A DNA stretch of 64,000 nt from Pseudanabaena sp. PCC 6802. GTDB lineage: Bacteria > Cyanobacteriota > Cyanobacteriia > Pseudanabaenales > Pseudanabaenaceae. This document shows positions 35,955 to 37,925 of this stretch, in pieces. Where the stretch lies: the NCBI RefSeq assembly GCF_000332175.1, contig NZ_KB235914.1, forward strand, positions 503,966-567,965. Direction: 5' to 3'. The notes beneath the pieces are model-generated. The model was given only the letters and a program-made list of their open reading frames with translations, was not told where the DNA came from and ran no database searches. Numbering within the stretch: position 1 is the first letter of the stretch; every line of letters starts with the position of its first letter. Both the position numbers and the translations under genes were made by a program.

Positions 35955-36905
35955 TCACCTTACGCGGATGTCTGAGAGGGTTTCAGGTTTCAGGGAATGC
36001 CACGCAGCAAATGCCTGCTTCAGTGCCTGAAGGTACAACTTCGATTTAAGCGCAAAATGATTTTGCTTAGACTGAAGCTTCAATACCTCCAATTTGATAT
36101 AGCGGTTTTCACTTGAGAACGGGTTTTATTTTTGGGGTGAAGGGGTGGAACCCCTTCTTGGGGGCAACGCCCCCAAACCCCCTGATCTTTCTGATCTGAA
36201 AACCGCTATATAACCCCACAATGCAGCAAAGAAATGATTCGTCTGACTGTTAATCGTCTGTGTAGGCGACTTTGACAGACTCACATTCTGCTTGAGCGAT
36301 TTGTGGTATTCTTCAACTTTCCATCGTTTTTGATAGATTGTTGTGATGCGCTCGTATGTCAAGCTCGTATCACTTGTCGCCAAATAGAGAATGCCCGTAC
36401 TGCCATCTTCGTTTGTGAAGATTTGTTTGGCTAACAATAAAGGGAATTCTACCCCTTCAAGGTAGATTGACTTAATGCATCCTCTTTTGATATCCACAGC
36501 CTCGACGCAGACATACTTGCCCTTCCTTTTGTCATCTTGACTCAGTGCTACCTTGCGATTGCTTTTGAGTGGCATGATAAAATCTTTCTTCAGTTCTTGC
36601 TTGATGAAATTCATATTCTCCGCTGCTGCATACCAAATATCGTTGAGTACATAACTAAACTCAACTTGATTTTGCACTGCTTGCTTTAGCATTTGCCGAT
36701 AATGCTCGTTTTTCGTGATTGTACTTCGTCTCTTAGGTTTCCCTGTCTTTTCGTCTTTGTAGATCTCTGTCTTCGTCACCAACACGAATCCGATTGGCAA
36801 CGATACTCCTTGGCTATGATACAAGAGGCTGATGAAGTTTATGCCTTTGACTTGTCTATCTTTGCTGTGGTCGTAATGCCAGCAGATATGCTCATTAGTT
36901 ACTTG
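35955..36905 (-). pseudogene. IS4/IS701-type transposase, 5'-truncated and split by a MITE
   Basis: The minus strand reads ICWHYDHSKDRQVKGINF (about 36890), VLNDIWYAAAENM with the second catalytic Asp, and YQKRWKVEEYHKSLK, a perfect Y-x2-R-x3-E-x6-K (YREK) motif. Frame then runs into the family A element at 36098-36211 and is shifted. Removing 112 bp (element plus one TA) gives GYIKLEVLKLQSKQNHFALK and continues to a stop at 35955, the normal C-terminus of this family. The N-terminal third with the first catalytic Asp is missing. So the gene was broken at least twice. Start boundary (about 36905) is approximate. Confidence 0.85.
36098..36211. repeat. MITE-like element, family A copy 7, inserted in the transposase gene
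   Basis: 114 bp including one TA on each side; the element proper is TAGCGG...CCGCTA at 36100-36209. The flank order is TTGA-TA-[element]-TA-TAACC, consistent with insertion at a TA that was duplicated. It is the only copy here with a pre-insertion reading frame to prove mobility. Confidence 0.9.
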
Positions 36906-36959
36906 CAAATTTGAGCAAGTAGAGTTACTTTGTATACATAGACATAATCGAACTCTAAA

Positions 36960-37166
36960 ATGCGCAACCCAAACCCAAATACAAAAGGGCTTAGGCCTAT
37001 CCAAAGGAGTGACGATACCACAGACCCACTAGCAGAGACAGCATTGATGGCAAGGGTACCCATCCACATTGATGCAATCGTGCGATCGCTACCCAATCGA
37101 TCGGCATGGTTGCGTCGGGTGATTACCGAAGCAGCACAGCGAGAGTTAATGGGAGATAAGTCATGA
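36960..37166 (+). CDS. Ribbon-helix-helix-like small protein
   Basis: 68 residues. An N-terminal tail (MRNPNPNTKGL) is followed by ARVPIHIDAIVRSLPNRSAWLRRVITEAAQREL, which has the spacing of a ribbon-helix-helix fold: a short strand, helix A, a turn at PNRS, helix B. Such small proteins in cyanobacteria bind DNA or act as antitoxins. The stop codon overlaps the start of the next gene (ATGA), so the two are translated together. An internal ATG at 37047 exists but would drop the tail. It lies 55 bp past the truncated end of the transposase. Confidence 0.62.
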   Translation: MRNPNPNTKGLRPIQRSDDTTDPLAETALMARVPIHIDAIVRSLPNRSAWLRRVITEAAQRELMGDKS

Positions 37167-37471
37167 CTGAGCGTTGGACAGACGAGCGTTTAGATCGACT
37201 TGCCGAAACTGTAGAGCGCTTTATCACAGGAGCAGAGGAGCGCATCGAAGATCTGACCGCAGTAACCCAGGCGATCGGTCGCGATGTGGCTCAACTGGTT
37301 GCAACCCAGCAGCAGTCATCGTCAGAGTTGAATCAGGCCATGATTCGTTTAGCCGATACCCAAGAGGGTATAGCAAGGCTACTTGCCAACCTGGATGATG
37401 ACCGTCCTACCATATTGCGCAAACTCAACGCGATCGAGAACAAAGTCGATCGGCTGTTAGAACAGCAGTAA
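37163..37471 (+). CDS. Coiled-coil protein, partner of the preceding gene
   Basis: 102 residues, almost entirely helical with heptad-like hydrophobics: RLAETVERFITGAEERIEDL, then QAIGRDVAQLVATQQQS and LRKLNAIENKVDRLLEQQ. No catalytic motif. Pairs of this coiled-coil protein behind a ribbon-helix-helix protein recur in cyanobacteria; the meaning is unknown. The start overlaps the previous stop by 4 bp. Confidence 0.65.
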   Translation: MTERWTDERLDRLAETVERFITGAEERIEDLTAVTQAIGRDVAQLVATQQQSSSELNQAMIRLADTQEGIARLLANLDDDRPTILRKLNAIENKVDRLLEQQ

Positions 37472-37472
37472 T

Positions 37473-37490
37473 ACCCCGATTTTTACCCCG
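37473..37490. repeat. Direct repeat ACCCCGATTTTTACCCCG, left copy
   Basis: 18 bp, identical to 37719-37736. The unit itself is two ACCCCG hexamers around ATTTTT. The two copies flank the tRNA fragment and stand before the integrase fragment, so they may be integrase arm-binding or attachment-site sequences. Confidence 0.65.
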
Positions 37491-37571
37491 CTACTTTATT
37501 GATAATGCCCAGATGCTTTATCAGGTAAGCAATTCAACCATGAGTGACATCTCAATGGCATTGAGAGGGTC

Positions 37572-37596
37572 AGCGGTTCGAATCCGCTTAGCTCCA
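37572..37596 (+). tRNA. tRNA 3' fragment (T arm and acceptor strand only)
   Basis: AGCGG-TTCGAAT-CCGCT is a perfect T stem-loop (5 bp, 7-nt loop with TTCGAAT), followed at the right distance by TAGCTCC-A, the 3' acceptor strand with discriminator base. No matching 5' GGAGCTA, D arm or anticodon arm is found in the 150 bp upstream. It is therefore the 3' part of a tRNA gene, the usual attB/attP identity segment of integrative elements, not a working tRNA. Confidence 0.7.
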
Positions 37597-37718
37597 TCGG
37601 TTGAGGAACCGTTAATTGATAAGGCTTTTGGGAGTTTCAAACATCTCCTGAAGGTAGTTTTTGCTGTCAATAAGCCCACGAAAATTGGCTTTTAAGGGTT
37701 GTTTGGGTTAGTAAATTC

Positions 37719-37736
37719 ACCCCGATTTTTACCCCG
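37719..37736. repeat. Direct repeat ACCCCGATTTTTACCCCG, right copy
   Basis: Identical 18 bp to 37473-37490, 246 bp to the right, directly in front of the integrase fragment start at 37744. Confidence 0.65.
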
Positions 37737-37743
37737 AACTTTC

Positions 37744-37911
37744 ATGAGCACTGTATATATCGAAAAGCACGACGGACGCTTGCGATTGCGATGGTTCCAC
37801 GCCAATAAACGCTACACGCTGGCTGCAGGCGTAGATGACAATGCCACCGGACGAGCGATCGCCAAACAAAAAGCCGCCCAAATTGAGCTAGACATTGCAG
37901 CGGGTTACTTT
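37744..37911 (+). pseudogene. N-terminal fragment of a tyrosine integrase
   Basis: 56 residues: STVYIEKHDGRLRLRWFHAN, then KRYTLAAGVDDNATGRAIAK and KQIELDIAAGYF-like end. This is the arm-DNA-binding domain of cyanobacterial phage-type integrases. The core-binding and catalytic domains (R..HxxR..Y) are missing; the sequence runs directly into the 3' end of surE on the other strand. With the tRNA fragment and the direct repeats it marks the end of a lost integrative element. Confidence 0.75.
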
Positions 37912-37925
37912 GTCAATAGAAGTTG

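Follow-up and report, generated by a model that had tools for sequence, protein, structure and literature searches.

The DNA analysed here, called the window, is a 64-kb stretch of a cyanobacterial genome (C5:503966-567965 of genome G000). Between the remnant of a transposase gene and the host gene surE it holds a short piece in which two small genes, a tRNA fragment enclosed by two repeats, a conserved spacer and the beginning of an integrase gene follow one another on the same strand (Table 1). A preliminary description had read this locus as the scar of an integrative element, and both the anatomy and the relatives described below agree that it is a junction piece of an element targeting tRNA-Ala. 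The two identical 18-bp repeats it had pointed out are indeed present, and they are arm-type sites rather than a duplication of the crossover. A short repeat pair occupies the P-arm position in most of the 18 right ends of related elements, and its sequence differs between them. The integrase reading frame breaks off 14 bp before the surE stop codon (37926). Next to the decayed transposase lies a MITE-like 113-bp dispersed repeat (36098-36211) with inverted ends ATATAGCGGTTTTCA...TGAAAACCGCTATAT, of which the genome has about 40 further copies.

Table 1. Features of the junction piece and its flanks, in window coordinates
Feature	Position	Strand	Basis or remark
Decayed DDE transposase remnant, left edge of the piece	36221..36938	-	Pfam DDE_Tnp_1
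Right-end gene 1, 68 aa	36960..37166	+	Ribbon-helix-helix-like (putative); homologues at the right ends of the C1:379 kb, C1:339 kb and G002 elements
Right-end gene 2, 102 aa, coiled coil	37163..37471	+	ATG overlaps stop of gene 1; over 95 aa, 78% identical to its C1:379 kb counterpart
P-arm site (ACCCCG twice, 12 bp apart)	37473..37490	+	18-bp repeat
Right-end motif TTTATTGANAATGCC(Y)NAAAGC, about 50 nt 5' of the T arm	37495..37521	+	Read across 18 right ends; window copy diverged
att core: 3' part of tRNA-Ala(ggc), 49 nt from the anticodon arm through the discriminator base	37548..37596	+	Identity to the intact tRNA
Conserved spacer (about 120 bp), proposed int leader RNA	37597..37718	+	Covariance model match, 118.9 bits
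Spacer hairpin H1	37598..37611	+	Covariation, first and held-out sets
Spacer hairpin A, terminator-like stem with TTTTT shortly 3'	37623..37656	+	Covariation in both sets, and fold
Spacer alternative helix B, one strand in common with hairpin A	37636..37707	+	Supported in the first set, weakly in the held-out set
P'-arm site, identical to the P-arm site	37719..37736	+	18-bp repeat
Tyrosine integrase start, about 55 codons (arm-binding domain), truncated	37744..37911	+	Pfam and homology
surE, flanking host gene; element piece stops at its stop codon	37926..38651	-	ORF and homology

The tRNA fragment had been described as a T arm plus acceptor strand, that is, the last 25 nt. It is present but longer, beginning in the 5' strand of the anticodon stem (37548). 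The 5' half is absent as stated: ARAGORN reports no complete tRNA within the window, and none spans the locus. An intact tRNA ending in TAGCTCCA, which the description proposed to look for, exists at C1:691 kb of the same genome; the fragment (37548-37596) is identical to this tRNA-Ala(ggc) in alignment, and several relatives have a tRNA-Ala that agrees with it at 100% across the 50 bases that match. At C1:691 kb the intact tRNA-Ala is followed by the spacer and a 43-codon integrase remnant. Because the intact tRNA-Ala thus sits with its own truncated copy on contig C1 and the window piece on C5, the window end is an orphan. C1 looks like the native place of this tRNA, since it carries what we take to be housekeeping genes (dnaX-, relA- and gltD-like ORFs) and since the gene 5' of the tRNA is common to the relative G006 (one of 33 loci examined). 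Another tRNA-Ala(ggc), which has diverged from the C1 copy in its T stem and acceptor region, stands without the spacer at C5:3156621-3156692 (L017).

The integrase fragment encodes an arm-binding domain cut at surE, as had been claimed (Pfam Arm-DNA-bind_2, E 7e-7, better than the curated cut-off). Its residues 3-55 are 74% identical to a complete 366-aa integrase of the same genome, at C1:388 kb, with Phage_integrase, SAM-like and arm domains, so the search for the missing domains ended in complete relatives within this genome. Complete integrases are also encoded at C5:2540691 (L113), about 180 bp after a tRNA-Pro(ggg), and at C5:2337709 (L114); they share 47% and 41% identity, respectively, with the C1 protein. 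Integrase relatives in phages and plasmids are all below 60% identity, the best being 37% (Planktothrix phage PaV-LD).

Both small ORFs left of the 18-bp repeat are intact. They had been labelled a ribbon-helix-helix and coiled-coil pair. The coiled-coil label is reasonable, but the ribbon-helix-helix label was not confirmed by Pfam, PDB sequence, model or fold searches: the gene 1 product had no Pfam match above cut-off and no PDB sequence relative, and its single-sequence structure model, mediocre with two confident helices, found no fold match in the PDB. Pairwise dN/dS was 0.09-0.31 for gene 1 (six comparisons) and 0.10-0.15 for gene 2 (three comparisons). The suggestion that the pair was cargo of the lost element holds in that it belongs to the element, but these are conserved right-end genes of the family and not random cargo.

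A search with 37473-37920 found five places in the genome besides the window, of which four copy the layout or its left end and the fifth is the diverged tRNA-Ala alone. At C1:388 kb an intact tRNA-Val(tac) is followed by the spacer and the complete integrase. The whole element there, about 10 kb, runs from tRNA-Val through spacer, integrase (366 aa) and a primase-like gene (970 aa) to the right-end pair and a tRNA-Val fragment. At C1:378 kb the right-end pair, the arm pair and a tRNA-Val fragment are joined to a spacer and a second integrase start (about 98 aa) that runs into an insertion sequence, and another right end with a tRNA-Val fragment and partial spacer lies at C1:339 kb. C1 thus has a tandem of two elements at a single tRNA-Val. 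Their arm sequences match within each element, with ACCCCG at both ends of the first and ACCCAG/GCCCAG at the ends of the second. The second element (C1:339-378 kb, L009-L011) is about 40 kb long and holds many insertion sequences and, presumably, type I restriction-modification genes, judging from ORFs that resemble them. No relaxase or type IV secretion family matched among nine proteins scanned from the C1 region. The 3' part of the tRNA is duplicated at both bounds of the C1 tRNA-Val element and of a tRNA-Ala element in G002; the window has one copy only.

The wider family was surveyed in 388 genomes of the class. A protein profile of right-end gene 1 matched in 59 of them (E 1e-5), and 40 fetched regions around profile matches were examined together with 15 earlier loci. 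In G002 an element of about 13 kb occupies the same tRNA-Ala. Small copies of about 1 to 2.2 kb that lack an integrase but have both ends and a right-end gene were found at L173:449-1674, L109:7859-10131 and L183:4486-6390. The order in L173 and L109 is tRNA-Val, spacer, right-end pair and tRNA-Val fragment, and L183 has no recognised spacer. All three keep both att ends and have lost the integrase, as CIMEs and accretion products do, and they are candidates for mobilization in trans. It had seemed that every right end is followed by the spacer and a cut integrase, but this impression came from search bias, as about half of the 18 right ends found via the right-end gene lack the full spacer. 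The smaller contig of the two-contig genome G149 (C2, L193, 23 kb) carries two right-end-type genes and could represent a plasmid or a relative in excised form. The survey thus delimits a cyanobacterial family of tRNA-targeting elements that occurs in complete, tandem, integrase-less and remnant forms. Our literature search found no account of this family or of a conserved tRNA-integrase leader in cyanobacteria; since most subscription journals lay outside that search, this is weak evidence of novelty.

A complete element of the family reads tRNA 5' half, core, spacer, P' arm, integrase, replication genes, right-end gene pair, P arm and core. The integrase would exchange strands at the anticodon region, so that integration rebuilds the tRNA with the 3' half of the element and displaces the original one to the opposite end. 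After a single integration the P' arm and the integrase lie at one end and the P arm at the other. In the window both arms, the whole core, the spacer and the integrase start stand together, and it therefore represents a tandem junction or a circle-type attP and not a single insertion. Both arms around a whole core are also seen between the tandem copies at C1:378 kb. We conclude that 36960-37911 is very probably an orphan junction piece, of tandem or circle-type attP origin, from a cyanobacterial family of integrative elements that enter tRNA genes by recombination in their 3' half. In this piece the core would connect two copies, with the right-end genes and P arm coming from one and the spacer and integrase start from the other, as in tandem accretion or an excised circle. 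Deletion or rearrangement would then have removed the remainder, so that the integrase ends at surE and the vicinity lacks a tRNA 5' half. The piece keeps this junction only and not both att ends, which sets it apart from CIMEs and accretion products.

An off-target integration of one element at surE, followed by its decay, is highly improbable. The fragment does lack an adjacent tRNA 5' half and surE is directly adjacent, as such an event would leave them, but a single insertion would split attP between the two ends, and the observed run of P arm, whole core, spacer, P' arm and integrase start requires a circle or tandem copies. The neighbourhoods of surE in 20 relatives offered a weak test, as none shares the surE gene order of the window: the layout without any integrase, which would have spoken against the preliminary description, was not seen, and in none of the 20 does the integrase lie directly beside surE. 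For the same reason an empty site at surE could not be shown in the relatives fetched. The tRNA-Val found near surE in some of them was judged a coincidence, because the core of the window derives from tRNA-Ala. That an insertion sequence, instead of rearrangement of a tandem array, carried the piece to surE is also unlikely, though less so. The DDE transposase remnant abuts its left side, but no matching insertion-sequence end was found on the right, and the transposase part has no second DNA-level copy in the genome that would define its ends. What we take to be a transposase-like ORF adjoins the integrase remnant on C1. An inversion linking C1:691 kb with the window was considered and dropped, as the broken ends share no DNA match beyond 15 and 28 bp.

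The distribution of the spacer was surveyed as well. A covariance model built on H1 and helix B only, with the window among its source sequences, found 56 places in 26 of the 388 genomes. Thirty-eight of these directly follow an intact tRNA (Val gac 10, tac 5 and cac 4; Ala ggc 7; Pro cgg 5 and ggg 4; Thr ggt 3), ten follow a tRNA fragment and one is at a contig edge. The remaining seven were not placed by the script, and five of them have tRNA remnants by eye. A right-end gene lies upstream of the spacer at 8 of the 10 places with a tRNA fragment, as against 0 of the 38 with an intact tRNA. An integrase match directly after the spacer reaches residue 350 or beyond at 10 of the 56 places, is shorter at 17 and is missing at 29, although several places are near contig ends and, for at least one of the 29 (G041:C14), a complete integrase lies slightly further on. 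The exact spacer pattern occurs in no viral contig and in two genome contigs. Rfam gave no match at gathering score, and a permissive search gave only a sub-threshold cyano_tmRNA match starting at the T arm. Spacers often outlast the integrase, which fits, without proving, a role as the replacement 3' flank of the tRNA.

Covariation was assessed in a first alignment of 24 spacers (A3) and in 22 held-out spacers outside it, aligned with the window row; helix A was absent from the model that recruited the latter. Helix A was paired in 96.2% of cells of the first set, with 4 double-changed cells (reached by 1 of 500 shuffles), and in 93.9% of the held-out set, with 10 (0 of 500 shuffles). H1 was paired in 86.8% of cells in both, with 14 double-changed cells in the first and 12 in the held-out set. 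Structure-conserved stem-loops between tRNA and integrase are accordingly present in both sets. Helix B was paired in 82.2% of cells with 29 double changes in the first set, but held-out pairing fell to 70.8% and 109 of 500 shuffles reached its double-changed cells; misalignment at the 3' end may explain part of this weakness. An alignment-free comparison of own with swapped arms, uncorrected for relatedness, gave p 0.052 for helix A and 0.003 for helix B in the first set, and 0.00015 and 0.042 in the held-out set. A further candidate helix, 5-14 with 27-36, showed no covariation in the first set. Folding favours the sense strand over the antisense (mean z -2.32 versus -1.03), with the lower value on the sense strand in 36 of 52. 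It is possible, though on balance we doubt it, that the conservation reflects only DNA sites for the integrase and accessory proteins. Inverted stretches common to the right-end motif and the spacer lie either side of the core, as protein sites would, and helix B is weak on held-out sequences. Against this view stand the retention of helix A through G-U and double changes in both sets and the strand difference in folding. The comparative evidence indicates that the spacer is a conserved structured RNA.

As to its function, the integrative element ICEKp1 offers a guide. When ICEKp1 is integrated, its int gene is described as driven by the tRNA promoter, with stem-loops between tRNA and int that lower transcription; after excision a promoter at the other end serves int (PMC13023037). 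Because the layout is the same, we infer the same logic here, in which the spacer would replace the lost 3' flank of the tRNA and, as a leader, limit tRNA-driven transcription of int. By this analogy the spacer probably attenuates read-through from the tRNA into int. Hairpin A lies about 26 nt after the tRNA end, and a U-rich stretch often follows (mean 4.3 of 10, against a background of 33%). An intrinsic-terminator scan did not list hairpin A of the window; the scan accepts loops of 3-8, and in the window the hairpin folds with a loop of 10. In the circle the right-end pair would lie just upstream of attP and could supply a promoter or regulator, and an antiterminator at the right end is possible.

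A more elaborate proposal, which we consider quite unlikely at present, is that the leader is an RNA sensor of the state of the element. The chromosomal tRNA transcript would fold hairpin A and stop before int. The circle transcript, coming from the right-end genes, would carry the motif GCCYAAAAGCCUUA, which would pair with the 5' arm of hairpin A and open it, so that int is made for re-integration. The right-end motif is roughly complementary to this arm, with a shuffle fraction of 0.02 or below in 5 of 18 right ends but also in 1 of 9 left-end controls, a modest signal, and inverted DNA sites for recombination proteins explain the complementarity equally well. Folding in silico gave mixed results. 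In the three right ends in which hairpin A forms from the spacer by itself, most of it is lost once the right-end sequence is present upstream; it is retained in two tRNA contexts, and the three remaining cases scarcely form it from the spacer by itself. The leader may control when the element moves.

Several features of the family are shared with known systems, compared here as far as the cited descriptions go. Islander-class islands have a tyrosine integrase beside a rebuilt tRNA, with the displaced tRNA 3' fragment marking the other end (PMC4383910). The present family is alike in these features, but the window copy is an orphan junction without a tRNA, and the family has a conserved leader RNA and a conserved right-end gene pair. 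Stacking, decay and int-less derivatives are already known as accretion and CIMEs (PMC5704250), which our copies stacked at one tRNA and the int-less copies with both ends (L109, L173) resemble; in contrast, no conjugation or mobilization gene was recognised among the proteins scanned, and the small copies of the family retain right-end genes. Set side by side by description, the tycheposons of Prochlorococcus (PMC10872708) likewise combine a tRNA with a tyrosine recombinase in a cyanobacterium. With ICEKp1 (PMC13023037) the family shares a tRNA that has a structured leader and int directly after it, and displacement of the native 3' flank of the tRNA by the element. The family differs in being cyanobacterial and in a leader whose conservation is seen by covariation across tRNA-Val, Ala, Pro and Thr. 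It thereby provides comparative evidence for a structured tRNA-integrase leader beyond the proteobacterial elements for which regulation of this kind has been reported.
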